Positions 56,678 through 64,000 of a stretch of 64,000 nucleotides of DNA are shown here, piece after piece. Source of the stretch: Candidatus Latescibacterota bacterium (GTDB lineage Bacteria > JAAXHH01); the NCBI GenBank assembly GCA_012270975.1, contig JAAXHH010000011.1:2381-66380 (forward strand), read 5' to 3'. The notes under the pieces are model-generated. The model was not told where the DNA came from and made no database searches. It saw nothing but the letters and a program-made list of their open reading frames with translations. The position numbers were made by a program, and so were the translations under genes. Each line of letters opens with the position of its first letter. Position 1 is the first letter of the stretch.

Positions 56678-57700
56678 ATGGGATCATCTGGAAAGAATCG
56701 CCATAGTTCATCTGAGCAAGTCGAGAGTTATCATGAGCATTCTGCCTTTGAACCGATTGTTCACAAGAGCGACGCTATGAAACGTATCTGTTCGATGACC
56801 TTTCAGTATGCGCGGACGGATTTGCCGGTGTTGATAACGGGAGAAACCGGGACGGGGAAAGAACTGATCGCCAGAGCGATTCATGCGGCAAGCAGCCGTG
56901 CCGACCAACCCTTTGTCGTCGTGGATTGTGCCGCGCTGCCCGAGACGCTGATGGGAAATGAACTCTTCGGTCATGAGAGGGGTGCCTACACGGGCGCCGA
57001 CAGGAAGCAGCCGGGTCTGTTCGCCGCAGCGAATAAAGGCACGATCTTCCTCGACGAAATCGGCGAACTGCCCCGGAATGCACAGGCCGTATTACTCCGG
57101 GTACTGCAGGATGGATCATATCGGCCCTATGGTGGTGTCCGACAAATGAAAACGGATGTTCGAGTAATCGCAGCTACCAATCGAGATCTGCAGGAGGCTG
57201 TAGTTCAAGGGTCCTTCAGGCTGGATCTCTACCATCGAATCGGGAGCGCGGTTCTCCAACTGTCCGCGCTTCGGTCACGCACGGACGATATACCGCTGCT
57301 CGTCCGGCATTTCATGAGGAAATTGACCCCATCTGGAGTTCAGTCGTTGGAATTGTCACCAACAGTGATGCGCAGATTGCTTCAACACCGATGGGAGGGT
57401 AACGTGAGAGAACTTGAGAACAGGCTCAGATCGGCGATTGCGCTGGCGTCGAACGGTCAGATCACCGTTGAGGACCTCTTTCCTGAAGAAGTTGAGGGCA
57501 CAGACCGCAGTAACGAAATACCATCGCTCCGAACCGTCAGAACAGGTATGTCAAAGGATACGGAAGGTCAATATCTTGAGAACATTTTACGAGAGACGCA
57601 CGGAAACGTATCGAAGGCTGCGGAAATCGTCGGAGTACATCGCACACATCTGTATAAACTATTACGTAGTCATGGGATATCTCCGTCTTATTATCGGTGA
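56678..57700 (+). CDS. PspF-like sigma-54-dependent transcriptional activator without sensory domain
   Basis: About 340 aa. AAA+ domain: Walker A GETGTGKE (55-62), the sigma-54 contact loop GAYTGAD (102-108), Walker B GTIFLDE (121-127), then LPRNAQAVLLRVLQDG and DVRVIAATNRDL. The C-terminal Fis-type helix-turn-helix (LRETHGNVSKAAEIVGVHRT, then HLYKLLRSHGI) binds enhancer DNA. Fewer than 30 residues precede the AAA+ domain, so there is no receiver, GAF or PAS sensor. That is the PspF arrangement, in which a partner protein or the level of the activator sets activity. Start at the ATG 56678 with GGGAGG four bases upstream; frame sequence before it looks non-coding. A sigma-54 promoter lies 295 bases after the stop, making the thioredoxin/peptide operon the obvious target. 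Confidence 0.9.
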   Translation: MGSSGKNRHSSSEQVESYHEHSAFEPIVHKSDAMKRICSMTFQYARTDLPVLITGETGTGKELIARAIHAASSRADQPFVVVDCAALPETLMGNELFGHERGAYTGADRKQPGLFAAANKGTIFLDEIGELPRNAQAVLLRVLQDGSYRPYGGVRQMKTDVRVIAATNRDLQEAVVQGSFRLDLYHRIGSAVLQLSALRSRTDDIPLLVRHFMRKLTPSGVQSLELSPTVMRRLLQHRWEGNVRELENRLRSAIALASNGQITVEDLFPEEVEGTDRSNEIPSLRTVRTGMSKDTEGQYLENILRETHGNVSKAAEIVGVHRTHLYKLLRSHGISPSYYR

Positions 57701-57842
57701 ATGATCAACCCTCTGGAGGATTCTGTGCCTTGTATCAGTATTTCGTATGACTATCTGATTGCTGTGCTACCTCCCATACTTTTGCAATAGGAGAGTTCGG
57801 CTACATTATCAAGAACACAAAAGAATGACGCTATGTGGTCTG

Positions 57843-57862
57843 ATGTAGTCGGGAGTCTACAT
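57843..57862. promoter_or_regulatory. Inverted repeat, possible activator enhancer site
   Basis: ATGTAG (57843-57848) and CTACAT (57857-57862) with an eight-base spacer, about 135-150 bases upstream of the sigma-54 promoter, the usual distance for an enhancer bound by a Fis-type activator. Confidence 0.45.
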
Positions 57863-57994
57863 ATTGTGTATCAACGTCTAGAACACCAGGTACCATTCCT
57901 TCAATTTCTGTTGCTTCGATAAACATCACAAAATCAAGTATTTCAACAAGATACCTCCTTTTCATTAGCAAAATCAAAATTGGTAAGTACACGT

Positions 57995-58009
57995 TGGCAT
58001 GATATCTGC
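57995..58009 (+). promoter_or_regulatory. Sigma-54 (-24/-12) promoter
   Basis: TGGCAT-N5-CTGC with the invariant GG and GC separated by exactly ten bases; consensus is TGGCAC-N5-TTGC. Predicted start near 58021, giving a leader of about 155 bases before the thioredoxin-like gene. The upstream neighbour is a sigma-54 activator gene, which supports it. Confidence 0.7.
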
Positions 58010-58177
58010 GTAAGCCTATTATGAAAACGTGCACATCTTATGGAACAAGCCAGGAAATACACTTTACGACTCCGGCTGAACGACGCTGCAGCAAACATCC
58101 GTGTTGCAGTATCGTTACAGGTATTTGATTAAACCTTCATTCCCAACTCTCAAATCTAAGGAGCCAACCCAAACCCC

Positions 58178-58768
58178 ATGTCTTCAGTGAGTACAAAATC
58201 ACGACTATTCCTGTATCTCGCCATCACTGTCCTCGTTGTCTTAAACTGCGCCTTTCTATGGCGCGATTATCAGAAAGAGCTGGACCGGCGAGATCTTCTG
58301 CAGAGGCTATACCGTACTCAGGTGGAAGTTCGCGTGCTGAAGTCGGAGAAGATGTTCGGCGCGCCTTTTGTTCCCGAATTCCGTACGGTTGACTTGGACG
58401 GTGAGCCTGCAGCACTGCCGAATTTCGGTAAGGGGCAGTTGCTCATCTTGTTTTTCCAGCCGTCGCACTGCGGGTCCTGCCTCGAGGCGATGTCTTCATT
58501 TGAAGCGGTGATCGGGGACAATGTCCCGGTAATCGGCGTTGTCCAGGCAAAGTTGCCCGAGGAAATTATGCCGACCTTGGATGCGTACGAGTACGAATTC
58601 CCGGTGTATCTGGCCGTCGATTCCCCCTTCGATTTGTCAATTTCTTCCCCTTACAGCGTATTAATCAATGAACTCGGGATAGTGTTACACATGTCAGCCA
58701 TTGATCCCAATATCCGATCGGTGGAGGAACTTATCTCGGAATTTGCGCAGATACTGGAAAGGAGGTAG
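58178..58768 (+). CDS. Membrane-anchored thioredoxin-like protein (CGSC), partner of the Cys-rich peptides
   Basis: 196 aa. One N-terminal helix (FLYLAITVLVVLNCAFLW) anchors it, followed by a short coiled region and a TlpA/AhpC-type thioredoxin fold. The redox motif is C98-G-S-C101 in FFQPSHCGSCLEAMSSF. VYLAVDSPFDLS and SVLINELGIVLH are the usual later strands, though the cis-proline position is not the classic one. It probably faces the periplasm and reduces, oxidises or isomerises disulfides. The next two genes encode exported peptides with six Cys each, so they are its likely substrates. An AAGGAG site lies rather far (14 bases) from the ATG. Confidence 0.8.
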   Translation: MSSVSTKSRLFLYLAITVLVVLNCAFLWRDYQKELDRRDLLQRLYRTQVEVRVLKSEKMFGAPFVPEFRTVDLDGEPAALPNFGKGQLLILFFQPSHCGSCLEAMSSFEAVIGDNVPVIGVVQAKLPEEIMPTLDAYEYEFPVYLAVDSPFDLSISSPYSVLINELGIVLHMSAIDPNIRSVEELISEFAQILERR

Positions 58769-58835
58769 CCGACTGCGCAACCTGGTATTAGGTTCTGCTG
58801 GTTTCTATCTGTTTTCATCTTAGGAGGATGAACAA

Positions 58836-59075
58836 ATGACACGATCGATTCGCAGACTCGGTTTAGTAGGAGCAACGCTCGCGATTGTACTTATCGCCGG
58901 GCTCAATTTTGCGGCGTTAGGGCAGTGGAATGTCCCCTATATTGGGGTGCAGGAGGCGTACGCTTGGGGACATTGCGCTGTTGGCATTTGCAATGGTTAC
59001 GGCGGCTGTTTTTTTGTTGGGTGGTGGCAGGTTCTAGGCCCTTGTGAGTGGTGGACTACGTGTTACTACTGTTAA
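58836..59075 (+). CDS. Exported six-cysteine, Trp-rich peptide precursor, copy 1
   Basis: 79 aa. N-terminus MTRSIRRLG followed by a hydrophobic helix (residues 8-28) is a signal or anchor. Possible cleavages are after G29 (ALG-Q) or after A43 (AYA-W), the latter a perfect AxA site that would leave 36 residues. The C-terminal part has Cys at 47, 52, 58, 70, 76 and 79 and five Trp after residue 43, and ends in Cys. AGGAGG eight bases before the ATG. No RiPP maturase or bacteriocin ABC transporter is adjacent, but a thioredoxin-like protein precedes it. The layout (helix, ~12-residue linker, QEAYA-like motif, Cys-rich tail) is loosely like Bacteroidetes NVEALA peptides; I do not claim homology. 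Function unknown: toxin, signal or surface peptide are all possible. Confidence 0.8.
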   Translation: MTRSIRRLGLVGATLAIVLIAGLNFAALGQWNVPYIGVQEAYAWGHCAVGICNGYGGCFFVGWWQVLGPCEWWTTCYYC

Positions 59076-59215
59076 CAATTCGCTTTGTTTCGTGTAATGT
59101 GAGCCTGAATTGTATCGCGAGTTAACATGAAGGACCACTGAGTTATTGGAAGGCATGAACCCCTGATGTGAGGCGTTGCTAGTTTCTTCCGTTTTCATCT
59201 AAGGAGGATGAACGA

Positions 59216-59455
59216 ATGACACAATCGATTCGCAGACTCGGTTTAGTAGGAGCAACGCTCGCGATTGTACTTATCGCCGGGCTCAATTTCGCGGCGTTAG
59301 GGCAGTGGGATGTCCTCTATATTGGGGTGCAGGAGGCGTACGCTTGGGGACATTGCGCTGTTGGCATTTGCAATGGTTACGTTGGATGTTATTTTGTTGG
59401 GTGGTGGCAGGTTCTAGGCCCTTGTGAGTGGTGGACTATGTGTTACTCCTGTTAA
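59216..59455 (+). CDS. Exported six-cysteine, Trp-rich peptide precursor, copy 2
   Basis: 79 aa paralogue of the preceding gene with all six Cys and all Trp kept. Differences: R3Q, N32D, P34L, G56V, F59Y, T75M and Y78S, seven amino-acid changes against only two silent ones (F25, G57 codons). The signal part is nearly identical and most changes lie in the exported part, which hints at diversifying selection, though numbers are small. AGGAGG with the same spacing before the ATG. Co-transcribed with copy 1 from the sigma-54 promoter, as no other promoter is apparent. Confidence 0.8.
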   Translation: MTQSIRRLGLVGATLAIVLIAGLNFAALGQWDVLYIGVQEAYAWGHCAVGICNGYVGCYFVGWWQVLGPCEWWTMCYSC

Positions 59456-59591
59456 TAATTCGCTTTGTTTCGTGTATTGTTGTGAGCCTGAATTGTATCG
59501 CGAGTTAACATGAAGGCCACTGAGTTATTGGAAGGCATGAACCCCTGATGTGAGGCGTTGCTAGTTTCTTCTGTTTTCATCTTAGGAGGAT

Positions 59592-59800
59592 AGTCGACGG
59601 CCACGATCGATCCATAGACTTGATCTTCGTGGTAAAACGCCTCCGGTCAAGCAGTTCGGCCCGTTCTTCAGTGGTCAGGCCGGCTTCGCACCTGCCTTGA
59701 TCCTGGTCGACCTGCTTGACCCAGTTGCGGATGGCTCGGTCGGTGAGATCGAACTCCTTGGCCAGCACTTCTCCGGCTGTGGCCGGCACGAACCAGGTTG
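59592..59800 (-). mobile_element. Fragment of an IS3-family transposase orfA
   Basis: On the minus strand, bases 59789-59637 encode VLAKEFDLTDRAIRNWVKQ, then DQDQGRCEAGLTTEERAELL, the helix-turn-helix and leucine-zipper start of IS3-type OrfA (HTH_Tnp_1). The N-terminus, the rest of OrfA, OrfB and terminal repeats are missing. Its left border abuts the truncated third peptide unit at 59591, so an insertion and later deletion most likely destroyed that copy. Confidence 0.75.
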
Positions 59801-59835
59801 ACCATTTAGGCGCACCGCAAGGGTTTAGTACATTT

Positions 59836-61035
59836 ATGGTATTCAGAGTTGCCTTGTCGCTGATTTTGTTGTTCGAAATCGTAAGTTTCCGGATTTCGTC
59901 AGCCATTGCCCAGACCAGCACCCTGCCAGATTCACTGAGTGAAACGGAATTCGGCGCGTTGATTCAGGATCTGTCCGGAGTAGGTAGAGACTTCCACACG
60001 GACAACTTCACTTCCAACGAGTCTACGTATCTGAATCCTCTGCCGATCCTGCGCAGACACGATCTTTCCCGCGGGGTTTATGTGGGTGTGGGACCTGAAC
60101 AGAACTTTTCATATATTGGCGCAATCCAACCTACAATGGCTTTCATCGTGGATATCCGCCGCAACAACATGCTGCAGCATCTCATGTACAAAGCTCTGTT
60201 CGCTCTGTCTGACACGCGGGCGGTTTTCCTTTCGAAACTGTTAAGCAAGCCCCTCTATGAAGACCTGCCGCGTATCAACAGGCTGTTTCGACGGACACCG
60301 GCCTGGATTGCGGGCGGCCGAGAGGCCTCGATCGGAGAACTGGTCGAATACTTCGACAGCGTCGCCCCGGATCCGGACCTGTACGACGAGAATATCAAAC
60401 AGATCAAGGAATTGGTAAAGGTACACGGGGTCGATAATGCCAACGACATGAGTGCATTAGAATACATTTACCGTGCGTTCTACCAACGCCAGCTCGATAT
60501 TCGCTACGATCTGCTCGGAAGCGACGGGAAACAACTACGAGAGGCTGCGGATCTTCGCGATCTTCTGCAGGCAACAACCACGGACGGAGAACCGGCCAGC
60601 TTCTTGGCCAACGATCATATCTTTAGCTATCTGAGAGAGATGCAAAGCCGTAATCTCATCGTGCCCGTGGTAGGCGATTTCGGTGGAGACCATGCTCTTC
60701 GTGCTATCGCAGAATATGTCAAGGCGCACGAGGCGACCATTTCCGTATTCTACACGTCCAATGTGGAGAGCTATCTTATTGCGGAAGGATATACCAGGTT
60801 TTTAAGGTACATCGCAAACATCGAACGTTTCCCGATTGACGAAACAAGTGTTTTCATCAGATCTTTCGCTAACGACAGCGATCCTCTGATGAAGTCCCAT
60901 CCAGATCGCTCTGGTAATCATCCCTTCACCACTTTGGTGCAACCCATTTCGATCCTACTTGAAGACAAACCTTGGGATGAATTGAGGCGATTCGATCTTT
61001 ACCGCTATATTGTAACCACCGGGAACCTGAAATGA
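59836..61035 (+). CDS. LIC_10091-like secreted protein
   Basis: About 399 aa with a signal peptide (VFRVALSLILLFEIVSF and a SSAIAQ cleavage). The body matches the LIC_10091-type family: SNESTYLNPLPILRR, then GVYVGVGPEQNFSYIGAIQP and AFIVDIRRNNMLQHLMYKALF, and a Rossmann-like VVGDFGGDHALRAIAEYV with ISVFYTSNVESYL. Family function is unknown; the second half is methyltransferase-like in layout. ATG at 59836 chosen because it begins the signal peptide; a frame from 59716 would run through the IS fragment. Its stop overlaps the TonB-domain gene by four bases (ATGA). Confidence 0.78.
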   Translation: MVFRVALSLILLFEIVSFRISSAIAQTSTLPDSLSETEFGALIQDLSGVGRDFHTDNFTSNESTYLNPLPILRRHDLSRGVYVGVGPEQNFSYIGAIQPTMAFIVDIRRNNMLQHLMYKALFALSDTRAVFLSKLLSKPLYEDLPRINRLFRRTPAWIAGGREASIGELVEYFDSVAPDPDLYDENIKQIKELVKVHGVDNANDMSALEYIYRAFYQRQLDIRYDLLGSDGKQLREAADLRDLLQATTTDGEPASFLANDHIFSYLREMQSRNLIVPVVGDFGGDHALRAIAEYVKAHEATISVFYTSNVESYLIAEGYTRFLRYIANIERFPIDETSVFIRSFANDSDPLMKSHPDRSGNHPFTTLVQPISILLEDKPWDELRRFDLYRYIVTTGNLK

Positions 61036-61547
61036 CGAATATGCATTTCGTAAAATCGAAGGAAAATCTGATCATGATCGCTATTCGCAAGGTTCCAATG
61101 TTATCATTGGTCCTTTCTGTAGCCGGCTGTGGCAATGATGGTCAACCACCCCAGGATGGCCAACCACCTCCGGCAGTCCAGGCGAGTCAGCTAGGGCGAC
61201 CGGACCAGGCAGCCGATCAGAAAGCTGGTATTTACTGGGCCACTACTGTGGACACGAGAGCAAAGCTTGTTTATATTCCTACTATGCCCGATGGCGACGA
61301 TCTCAATTTCGATGGCGTCACAGTGATTCAAGTCGTGGTAGGTACTGATGGCATAGTGGAAACGGCTTTTGTCGAGGGAGCGTCGGGTCGCGTTTCTGTG
61401 GACTCTCTGACGCTGGATATTGTTCGAAAAACGATCTGGACGCCGGCAATACATGACGGTGCCGTCGTAAAGATGCGCCAGTCGCTACCGATTATTTACA
61501 GGAAATCATTACAAACCCCTGGCGAGGAGACCGTCACCGAAGAATGA
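61032..61547 (+). CDS. TonB C-terminal domain lipoprotein
   Basis: 171 aa. Lipobox-like VAGC (around Cys33) after a hydrophobic segment, a repeated QPPQDGQPPP linker, then a TonB/TolA-type C-terminal domain: DGVTVIQVVVGTDGIVETAFV, SVDSLTLDIVRKTIWTPAIHDG and VKMRQSLPIIYR. Such stand-alone TonB-box domains are common in this type of genome as energy-transducer-like or envelope proteins. No ExbB/ExbD nearby. Translationally coupled to the LIC_10091-like gene. Confidence 0.75.
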   Translation: MTNMHFVKSKENLIMIAIRKVPMLSLVLSVAGCGNDGQPPQDGQPPPAVQASQLGRPDQAADQKAGIYWATTVDTRAKLVYIPTMPDGDDLNFDGVTVIQVVVGTDGIVETAFVEGASGRVSVDSLTLDIVRKTIWTPAIHDGAVVKMRQSLPIIYRKSLQTPGEETVTEE

Positions 61548-61614: not shown

Positions 61615-64000
61615 ATGTTCTCCCACCACCTCACGATCACCCTAAGGTCCTTCCTCAAACAAAGATCCCATACCATCATCAACGTCATGGGGCTGGCCAT
61701 CGCCATGGCCGCGTGCGTACTCACGCTGTTGTACATAAAGGACGAATGGACCTACGATACGCACCACAAACACGCTCCGCAGGTCTTCCGGCTGATCCAT
61801 GGCAACAACACGCGCATGGCGGGCGCGGCGGGCTCCGCGCTGAAACAGCACTTCCCGGAGGTCGCAAGTGCCGTGCGCATGCGGGCGACGCGGGCCATAT
61901 GGCTCATACGGTTCGGCGACCGCGAGTTCTACGAAGACCGCGTCTACTGGACCGAGCCTTCGCTGTTCGACGTATTCACCATACCCCTGCTCAAGGGAAA
62001 CCCCGATTCCGCGTTGGAGGGGCAGTACAGAGCGGTCATCTCGGAGTCCATGGCCAAGAAGTACTTCGGCGACGCGGACCCCATGGGCGAGGTCATGCGC
62101 CTGGACAACACGTACAGCTTTACCATCACGGGCATCATGGAGGATTTCCCGAGCCACACGCATTTCACCGCGGATATGTTCCTGTCGTTTGGGCCCGAGT
62201 TGAACTTCATAGACAACTGGTGGAGTGCGACCTACTATACTTACCTGCGTCTGAACGATCAGCGTCTCGCTCCTGACCTGACGTCAAAGTTCCAGTCTTA
62301 TTTCGACACCGAAATCAAGCCCGCGAACCCGCAGAGCATCCAGGATTACCGGTTTGCCCTTCAGCCGTTGGCCTCGATACACCTGCGTTCCAATCTCCTC
62401 AACGAACTCGAATCGAACAGCAGCATGGCGTACCTTTACACCCTCATGACGGGGGCCGTTTTCCTGCTGCTGATCGCCTGCATCAACTTCATCAATCTGT
62501 CCATGGTCCAGTCGACCGCCAAGGCGAAGGAAGTGGGCCTCATGAAGGTGTTTGGCGCGGACCGTTCCCGTATCGTCATGCAGTATCTGAGCGGGTCCGT
62601 ACTGATCTCGGGTCTGGTACTCTTACTGGCCGTTCTGCTGGCCCGCCTTTCGCTTCCGGCCTTCAACGCCGTGACCGGGAAGGCGCTGTCCATGGACCTG
62701 ATGCAGCATCTCGACGTCTGGCTTGGCCTTATCGCCATCTCGGTACTGGCGGGCGTGTTGTCGGGGAGTTTTCCGGCCATGGTCCTGTCCGGATATCGCC
62801 CGATGGACGCCCTGAGCCGCCGATTAAGCCAGGCGATCGACTATCCTTTCGTAAAACGGGTGCTCATCACCGTGCAGTTCACCCTCTCCGTGATCCTGAT
62901 CACCAGCACGGGGGTGGTGTACAATCAGTTGCAGTACATGATGAATGAACCTCCTGGTTTCGAAAAGTCTGACGTGGTGGTTGCCCCCCTGATCTCGGGA
63001 TTCTTCGTGGATACCGATACACAGGAATCCTCCGAGGGTTCCCAACAGTTTAGCATGAGATCGTCCGAGGGATTCCAGAACGAGTTGCTTCAGTCACCGT
63101 ATATCCAGGGTGTTTCCCTGTCGGACTACGTACCCGGACTCGCGCCGGGGCGGGGAATGATCGGGGAAACCATGGTGCGCAGAGGAGACGGCAGCGATAT
63201 CCCCGCGTCCACGTCCATCCGCATAGTGAACGTCGAACACGATTTCTTCGAGACCCTGGGCATGAATCTGATCCTGGGGACGAATCTGAAGCCACGAGAT
63301 ATGAGGGTCTTCAATCCGTTCGCCGTTCTTGAGATCGTGCTGAACGAAACGGCGGTGCGGCATCTGGGATGGACTTCCCCCGAAGAGGCCCTGGACAAGC
63401 CGGTGGAACTGGTCCACCCACGGTTTGTAAACCGAGGCAGGGTCGTCGGTGTGGTCCAGGACACCCACTTTCGTTCCCTCTACCAGCCCGTAGAACCCAT
63501 GGTGTTCTTAAGCAGTACTTTCGGGGAACACATGAGCGTTCGATTGCAGCCGGGCAGTACGTCCTCCGCGCTTGAGTACCTCAATGGCGTCTGGCAATCT
63601 CACTATCCGGAGATTCCGCTTTTCTATTCCTTTCTCGAAGACGACATAGACCGACTGTATCTGCCCGAAGAGCGACTTGGCACGCTCCTCGGAATATGCG
63701 CGTTGCTAGCCATTGTTCTGACCTTCCTTGGGCTGTTCAACCTGGTCTCCCTTACCATGCACCAGCGGACGAGGGAAATCGGCGTTCGCAAGATACTCGG
63801 CTCGACCCGGCCGCAGCTTGTTCAGCTATTGTCGAAAGAGTTCGTGGTCATGGCTGTCGCGGGGAGTTTTACCGCCTGGCCGATCGTCTACTTCGTCATG
63901 GACAGCTGGCTGCGGGATTTCGCCTATCGCACGGCGCCCAGCCCGGCGCTCTTCTTCCTGGCGGGCCTGGCCGTACTGGCCATCGCGACGGCCACGGTCG
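61615..64000 (+). CDS. MacB/FtsX-type ABC transporter permease (3' partial at window end)
   Basis: At least 795 codons, open to the window edge. Same architecture as the permease at 9712: N-terminal LRSFLKQRSHTIINVMGLAI, a MacB-like periplasmic domain (SEPSLFDVFTIPLLKGNP-type segment, SESMAKKYFGDADPMG), FtsX helices with KEVGLMKVFGADRSRIV, a second periplasmic domain (DFFETLGMNLILGTN), and C-terminal helices with REIGVRKILGSTRPQLV. Nearly complete by comparison, lacking only the last few residues. It belongs to the putative-peptide or lipoprotein-export permeases that need a separate ATPase. Its position after the peptide cluster could be chance. Confidence 0.88.
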   Translation, partial: MFSHHLTITLRSFLKQRSHTIINVMGLAIAMAACVLTLLYIKDEWTYDTHHKHAPQVFRLIHGNNTRMAGAAGSALKQHFPEVASAVRMRATRAIWLIRFGDREFYEDRVYWTEPSLFDVFTIPLLKGNPDSALEGQYRAVISESMAKKYFGDADPMGEVMRLDNTYSFTITGIMEDFPSHTHFTADMFLSFGPELNFIDNWWSATYYTYLRLNDQRLAPDLTSKFQSYFDTEIKPANPQSIQDYRFALQPLASIHLRSNLLNELESNSSMAYLYTLMTGAVFLLLIACINFINLSMVQSTAKAKEVGLMKVFGADRSRIVMQYLSGSVLISGLVLLLAVLLARLSLPAFNAVTGKALSMDLMQHLDVWLGLIAISVLAGVLSGSFPAMVLSGYRPMDALSRRLSQAIDYPFVKRVLITVQFTLSVILITSTGVVYNQLQYMMNEPPGFEKSDVVVAPLISGFFVDTDTQESSEGSQQFSMRSSEGFQNELLQSPYIQGVSLSDYVPGLAPGRGMIGETMVRRGDGSDIPASTSIRIVNVEHDFFETLGMNLILGTNLKPRDMRVFNPFAVLEIVLNETAVRHLGWTSPEEALDKPVELVHPRFVNRGRVVGVVQDTHFRSLYQPVEPMVFLSSTFGEHMSVRLQPGSTSSALEYLNGVWQSHYPEIPLFYSFLEDDIDRLYLPEERLGTLLGICALLAIVLTFLGLFNLVSLTMHQRTREIGVRKILGSTRPQLVQLLSKEFVVMAVAGSFTAWPIVYFVMDSWLRDFAYRTAPSPALFFLAGLAVLAIATATV

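Follow-up and report, generated by a model that had tools for sequence, protein, structure and literature searches.

Control of natural-product genes by sigma-54 is established in Myxococcus (PMC7910581), and the excerpts of three further papers on which we drew describe thiol-disulfide proteins that accompany several bacteriocins (PMC4919988, PMC8620827, PMC6405829). The Latescibacterota of sponges have been named talented producers, and modified lasso clusters of sponge symbionts have also been highlighted (PMC9426513). Here, we analyzed a 64,000-nt stretch of DNA ("the window"; G000:C105:2381-66380) from a draft genome of 4.06 Mb, and compared it across the 12 species of its genus (the window's own genome, G000, and 11 others). 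Labels in a public collection disagree within this genus, with G008 listed as Candidatus Latescibacterota and G010 as Gemmatimonadetes (isolate IRC1_bin_16). The reading that we consider probable, with moderate confidence, is that a dedicated sensorless sigma-54 switch would drive the operon behind it, and that the switch would be the stable part of the locus while its exported-product cargo has been exchanged between species. Neither a self-contained switch that has one site and whose cargo can be exchanged nor the six-Cys peptide family described below was found in the sequence libraries and literature searched, a search that was not exhaustive.

From position 56678, the (+) strand carries, in order, an activator gene, a palindrome, a promoter, a TlpA-like gene, two peptide genes and genes for DUF7790, TonB_C and MacB/FtsX permease proteins, followed beyond the window by FMN_bind and ApbE genes. 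A first-pass annotation of the same DNA had described the activator, the palindrome, the −24/−12 promoter, a CGSC-bearing thioredoxin-like membrane protein and the six-Cys peptides, all of which were recovered at the positions it gave. It had also ended the unit at 59455, which proved too short, as the run of same-direction genes reaches at least 64059. Judged by the comparisons below, the locus is made up of two separable modules, (i) the activator, palindrome and promoter and (ii) the TlpA-peptide-DUF7790-TonB_C-FtsX genes.

The activator gene (56678..57700, + strand) encodes a predicted sigma-54 enhancer-binding protein with an AAA+ domain, a GAYTGA loop and a Fis-type HTH. Specifically, the Sigma54_activat AAA+ domain scored 218.3 bits (cut-off, 20.2), and both the AAA lid and HTH_8 were also matched. 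Because only ~26 residues precede the AAA+ domain, the protein lacks a sensor domain. The GAYTGA sigma-54 contact loop, which has been reported as a working variant of GAFTGA (PMC6615313), is present in all five activator orthologs, and the G000 genome contains one sigma-54 gene (rpoN; PF04552, 180 bits, G000:C140). The description of this activator as "PspF-like" is apt as far as the missing sensor goes, but the protein is not a PspF equivalog (246 bits against TIGR02974, with a cut-off of 443.55). Orthologs (76–87%) were found in 4 of the 11 other species of the genus, namely G008, G009, G010 and G011, and a scan of genome contigs from outside the genus returned only distant activators at other places.

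The palindrome TGTAG-N8-CTACA (57844..57861), a predicted activator binding site, is the single match to this pattern both in the window (0 in 100 shuffles) and across the whole 4.06-Mb genome. The −24/−12 promoter TGGCATGATATCTGC (57995..58009, + strand) lies 295 bases past the activator stop codon, as had been claimed, and is the only match to TGGYAYG-N4-YTGC in the window (0.19 expected from shuffles). A genome-wide scan for further promoters of this type, which the first-pass annotation had proposed, returned 16 matches compared with 37 for the reversed control, i.e., no enrichment. Since the motif alone is not enriched in the genome, the case for the promoter rests on its conserved position. 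The promoter occupies the same place as TGGCATGTTATCTGC in G008, TGGTATGACTTTTGC in G009 and TGGTACGTCATTTGC in G010, and the order of activator, palindrome and promoter is constant in all four species, with palindrome-to-promoter gaps of 134 bp (G000), 134 bp (G008), 215 bp (G009) and 217 bp (G010). The middle of the palindrome in G009 and G010 differs from that in G000. A 35-aa ORF directly after the promoter (58021-58128) was set aside because it is not conserved in G008.

Across the 12 species, the palindrome was present in four of the five genomes that carry the activator and in none of the seven that do not. The chance rate can be gauged from one additional palindrome in G010 and from G001 and G014, both more distant, which have two apiece. 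The second G010 palindrome (on C26) runs into the 5′ end of a lipoprotein gene; the sequence read there has no −24/−12 match, and this palindrome was judged to be a chance occurrence. The remaining activator-bearing species, G011, has kept the gene, but the palindrome, promoter and cargo are all missing beside it; an activator retained in the absence of its site could act on other targets, or it could be undergoing decay.

The first gene after the promoter (58178..58768, + strand) encodes a TlpA-like protein of thioredoxin fold with a CGSC motif, a hydrophobic N-terminus that would serve as a membrane anchor and a match to AhpC-TSA (27.4 bits; cut-off, 26). It is followed by two genes for 79-aa peptides (58836..59075 and 59216..59455, + strand), each with a signal-like leader and a six-Cys core, which form a tandem duplication with a period of 380 bp and 93% identity; peptide 2 is 91% identical to peptide 1. 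A remnant of a third repeat, covering the upstream region and the start of the leader, lies at 59559..59641 (+ strand). This broken repeat adjoins a transposase-OrfA-like remnant ORF (59577-59921, − strand) between peptide 2 and the DUF7790 gene; the same ORF is found in G008 and has no Pfam match.

The remaining genes of the run, all on the (+) strand, encode a DUF7790/LIC_10091-like protein with a signal-like N-terminus (59836..61035), for which a PDB search returned one weak, uncharacterised chain (6ulo), a lipoprotein-like TonB_C domain protein (61032..61547), and a MacB_PCD/FtsX permease (61615..64000) whose gene runs on to 64059, past the end of the window. Directly behind the permease are an FMN_bind protein with a flavinylation-like motif (DGITGATKSS) and an ApbE flavin transferase (window 64102 onward; L065:483-2198). 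These two genes show background divergence in G008 and are missing behind the corresponding operon of G011. A repeated small coiled-coil membrane protein (MEKVNWPMVGIQAIS...) is encoded farther on (65866-66739, − strand, L065) and has relatives in G002 and G012, at the variable chromosomal spot described below.

The peptides were found in three genomes (G000, G008 and G011), and searches of the rest of the phylum gave matches at chance level only. Their leaders are hydrophobic and Sec-signal-like as judged by eye, and are 86–88% identical between G000 and G008. The 36-residue cores of these two species, in comparison, are 42% identical, with 21 of the 36 codons differing nonsynonymously and 1 synonymously, a divergence for which either selection or recombination with a different allele could be responsible. 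All four peptide cores nonetheless contain six Cys, spaced x4-5, x4-14, x10-11, x3-5 and x2 (x4, x5, x11, x5 and x2 in G000). No known family was recognized, as neither the window's two peptides nor that of G008 had a Pfam match up to E = 10, the G011 peptide had a single irrelevant one (E 0.48), and the window peptides had no match in NCBIfam. RiPP modification enzymes were not recognized beside the peptides in the G000 operon, and G008 has the same genes. A likeness of the leader to Bacteroidetes NVEALA peptides was considered and dropped, there being no Pfam match and no paper with that word in the literature searched.

The association between thioredoxin and peptides proposed by the first-pass annotation is supported in that peptides occur only beside a CxxC-bearing TlpA protein (3/3 genomes), with the motif reading CGSC in G000, CGAC in G008 and CASC in G011. 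TlpA-TonB_C fusions that stand without a peptide have neither active-site cysteine (CxxC in 0/6). These fusions occur in six genomes of the genus, one each in G000 (L062:6290-7402, C85) and five relatives (L059-L061, L063, L064), and no peptide was detected in the five relatives. The three CxxC-bearing proteins form one set of close relatives (67–90% identical), so the correlation between CxxC and peptides may reflect a single event. Two observations, namely the distribution of CxxC and the conservation of leaders while cores diverge, are thus suggestive of a redox link between the TlpA-like protein and the peptides, and given the small sample and the close kinship of the CxxC proteins they fall short of proof.

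This evidence also bears on an alternative that we regard as unlikely, in which the TlpA-like protein serves envelope redox chemistry in general (in the manner of ResA/CcmG or for thiol maintenance), and the peptides encoded next to it are unrelated or are substrates of something else. Such a role would fit the weak family matches, the nearest solved chains (StoA and a putative thiol-disulfide oxidoreductase) and the electron-transfer pair FMN_bind and ApbE downstream, but it leaves unexplained why CxxC is confined to places where peptides are and why the TlpA-peptide order is kept in three species, the displaced copy in G011 included.

Behind the conserved switch, the cargo differs among species. 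In G000 and G008 it comprises TlpA, peptide(s), DUF7790, TonB_C and FtsX genes. G009 has PqqD, two radical SAM/SPASM proteins, an HprK-like kinase, Asn synthase, lasso B2 protease, a second PqqD and two ABC transporters at this position. The profile matches of this cargo (lasso_biosyn_B2, 58.6 bits with a cut-off of 33; Asn_synthase, 45.6 bits with a cut-off of 21; PqqD twice) supply the lasso components, and no convincing precursor candidate was found between the promoter and PqqD. The G009 lasso-type RiPP cluster spans L056:8757 to L073:6202. The cargo of G010 is a giant, presumably surface-located protein of 3,282 aa with many FN3 domains and an FlgD/secretion-tail-like end. In G011, the TlpA-peptide-DUF7790-TonB_C-FtsX operon lies on a contig other than that of the activator, near AlpA and integrase genes, and the stretch read upstream of it contained no activator, palindrome or recognizable −24/−12 site.

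These distributions weigh on the first-pass claim that activator, promoter, thioredoxin and peptides are one regulated unit. As an obligate device, in which the four parts evolved and work together, the idea is improbable and already largely refuted. All four elements do occur together in G000 and G008, and the CxxC of TlpA tracks the peptides; the full synteny extends to G008 and to no other relative. Measured against its own refuting condition, an absence of co-occurrence in relatives, the claim survives narrowly. What holds more widely is the togetherness of activator, palindrome and promoter in four species. Against an obligate device stand the unrelated cargo behind the switch in G009 and G010, the G011 peptide operon without a switch, and the different ages that synonymous divergence between G000 and G008 gives for switch and cargo (see below).

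The chromosomal setting of the activator is shared by most of its carriers. Its flanking genes are the same in G000, G008, G010 and G011, with a 245-aa gene on one side and a 99-aa/PhyH/TIM-barrel group on the other. In G003, G004 and G005 only about 140–190 bp lie between these two neighbours, and in G002, G007, G009 and G012 they flank 0.65–1.4 kb of other DNA that contains small genes. A lipoprotein with two TonB_C-like repeats, seen by eye and without a Pfam match (L106:1510-2223, L107, L108), fills the activator's spot in G009, G007 and G002. The G009 activator and RiPP cluster sit elsewhere, adjoining a stretch that matches 75 residues of the 99-aa neighbour gene, as if the piece had been copied out. 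On a tree of the neighbour genes, in which most branches are weak, the activator is patchy: the G000/G011/G008 group carries it and, separately, so do G009 and G010. Both repeated loss and transfer are possible explanations of that pattern.

Divergence between G000 and G008 separates the two modules. Outside the cargo block, dS was 0.47 for the activator, 0.48 for FMN_bind and 0.50 for ApbE; inside it, dS was 0.048 for TlpA, 0.056 for DUF7790 and 0.08 for TonB_C. In TlpA and TonB_C, dN was about equal to dS, which was not the case in DUF7790. The near-identical block lies downstream of the promoter, beginning just 5′ of the TlpA ribosome-binding site and tapering off within the FtsX gene. Such a pattern would be expected if the cargo had recently been exchanged while the switch stayed in place. 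Another alternative, to which we give little credence, takes the operon to be a mobile passenger swapped in by chance and outside the functional control of an activator whose real role is elsewhere; it draws on this low-divergence block, on the AlpA/integrase genes adjoining the G011 operon and on the G011 activator retained without a site, but four species have kept palindrome and promoter ahead of their cargo, and in three of them the genome contains a single copy of the palindrome, so those three genomes hold no other exact target for the activator.

Directly observed are the parts themselves and their conservation, the separate distributions of the two modules, the differences in cargo between species, the block of low divergence within the cargo and the variability of the peptide cores. 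The reading that we favor, a stable switch with exchanged cargo, could operate as follows. From co-occurrence and position, we infer that the activator would bind TGTAG-N8-CTACA at 134–217 bp 5′ of the −24/−12 promoter. The motif, its place and the GAYTGA loop (PMC6615313) suggest that the activator would then drive sigma-54 polymerase at 57995-58009. The peptides would, to judge by the leader, exit via Sec, after which the membrane-anchored TlpA-like thioredoxin may set or repair their disulfides outside the cytoplasm, as its anchor and the CxxC correlation imply. By conjecture, the permease, TonB_C and DUF7790 proteins might assist export, envelope passage or handling, or self-protection, and any purpose assigned to the peptides is likewise conjectural. 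More tentatively, and with somewhat less than even confidence, we propose a wider reading: the activator, the single palindrome and the −24/−12 promoter would form an "expression socket" for exchangeable exported-product operons, and the six-Cys peptides would make up a new family of exported mini-proteins that is diversifying rapidly and depends for folding on a thioredoxin-like protein, one with catalytic cysteines only when peptides are present.

If this is true, a one-site sigma-54 switch marks the place of some of the exchangeable exported products of this uncultured lineage, and the signature of activator, TGTAG-N8-CTACA and −24/−12 promoter would give a practical means of searching for new peptide families and for RiPP clusters without a recognizable precursor. 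G011 would then be a case of a regulator outlasting its neighbouring target. Proteins that are otherwise similar but either have or lack CxxC would make it possible to test directly how a thioredoxin comes to serve a single substrate.

Compared with described systems, the activator resembles PspF and other sensorless enhancer-binding proteins in combining AAA+ with a Fis-type HTH and no N-terminal sensor, and differs from PspF in falling below the equivalog cut-off and in having no psp genes in the neighbourhood read. As far as the excerpts consulted describe them, pediocin with PedC (PMC4919988) and enterocin F4-9 and other glycocins (PMC8620827, PMC6405829) likewise pair a small Cys-containing exported peptide with its own thiol-disulfide protein. 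Unlike those systems as there described, the locus here has a Sec-like leader and predicted sigma-54 control, with no double-glycine leader, peptidase-containing ABC exporter or glycosyltransferase. The G009 cargo shares PqqD, B2 protease, Asn synthase, ABC transporters and extra tailoring enzymes with the modified lasso clusters of sponge symbionts (PMC9426513), from which it differs by its two radical SAM/SPASM proteins, HprK-like kinase and predicted dedicated sigma-54 switch. Nla28 of Myxococcus xanthus (PMC7910581) offers the likeness in control, being an enhancer-binding protein with defined binding sites and −12/−24 promoters before secondary-product genes, an arrangement predicted here as well. 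However, Nla28 serves several natural-product promoters, mostly inside genes, whereas the activator described here has a single site in each genome (G010 has two, of which one is probably due to chance), placed beside its own gene, and the product genes behind that site vary by species.
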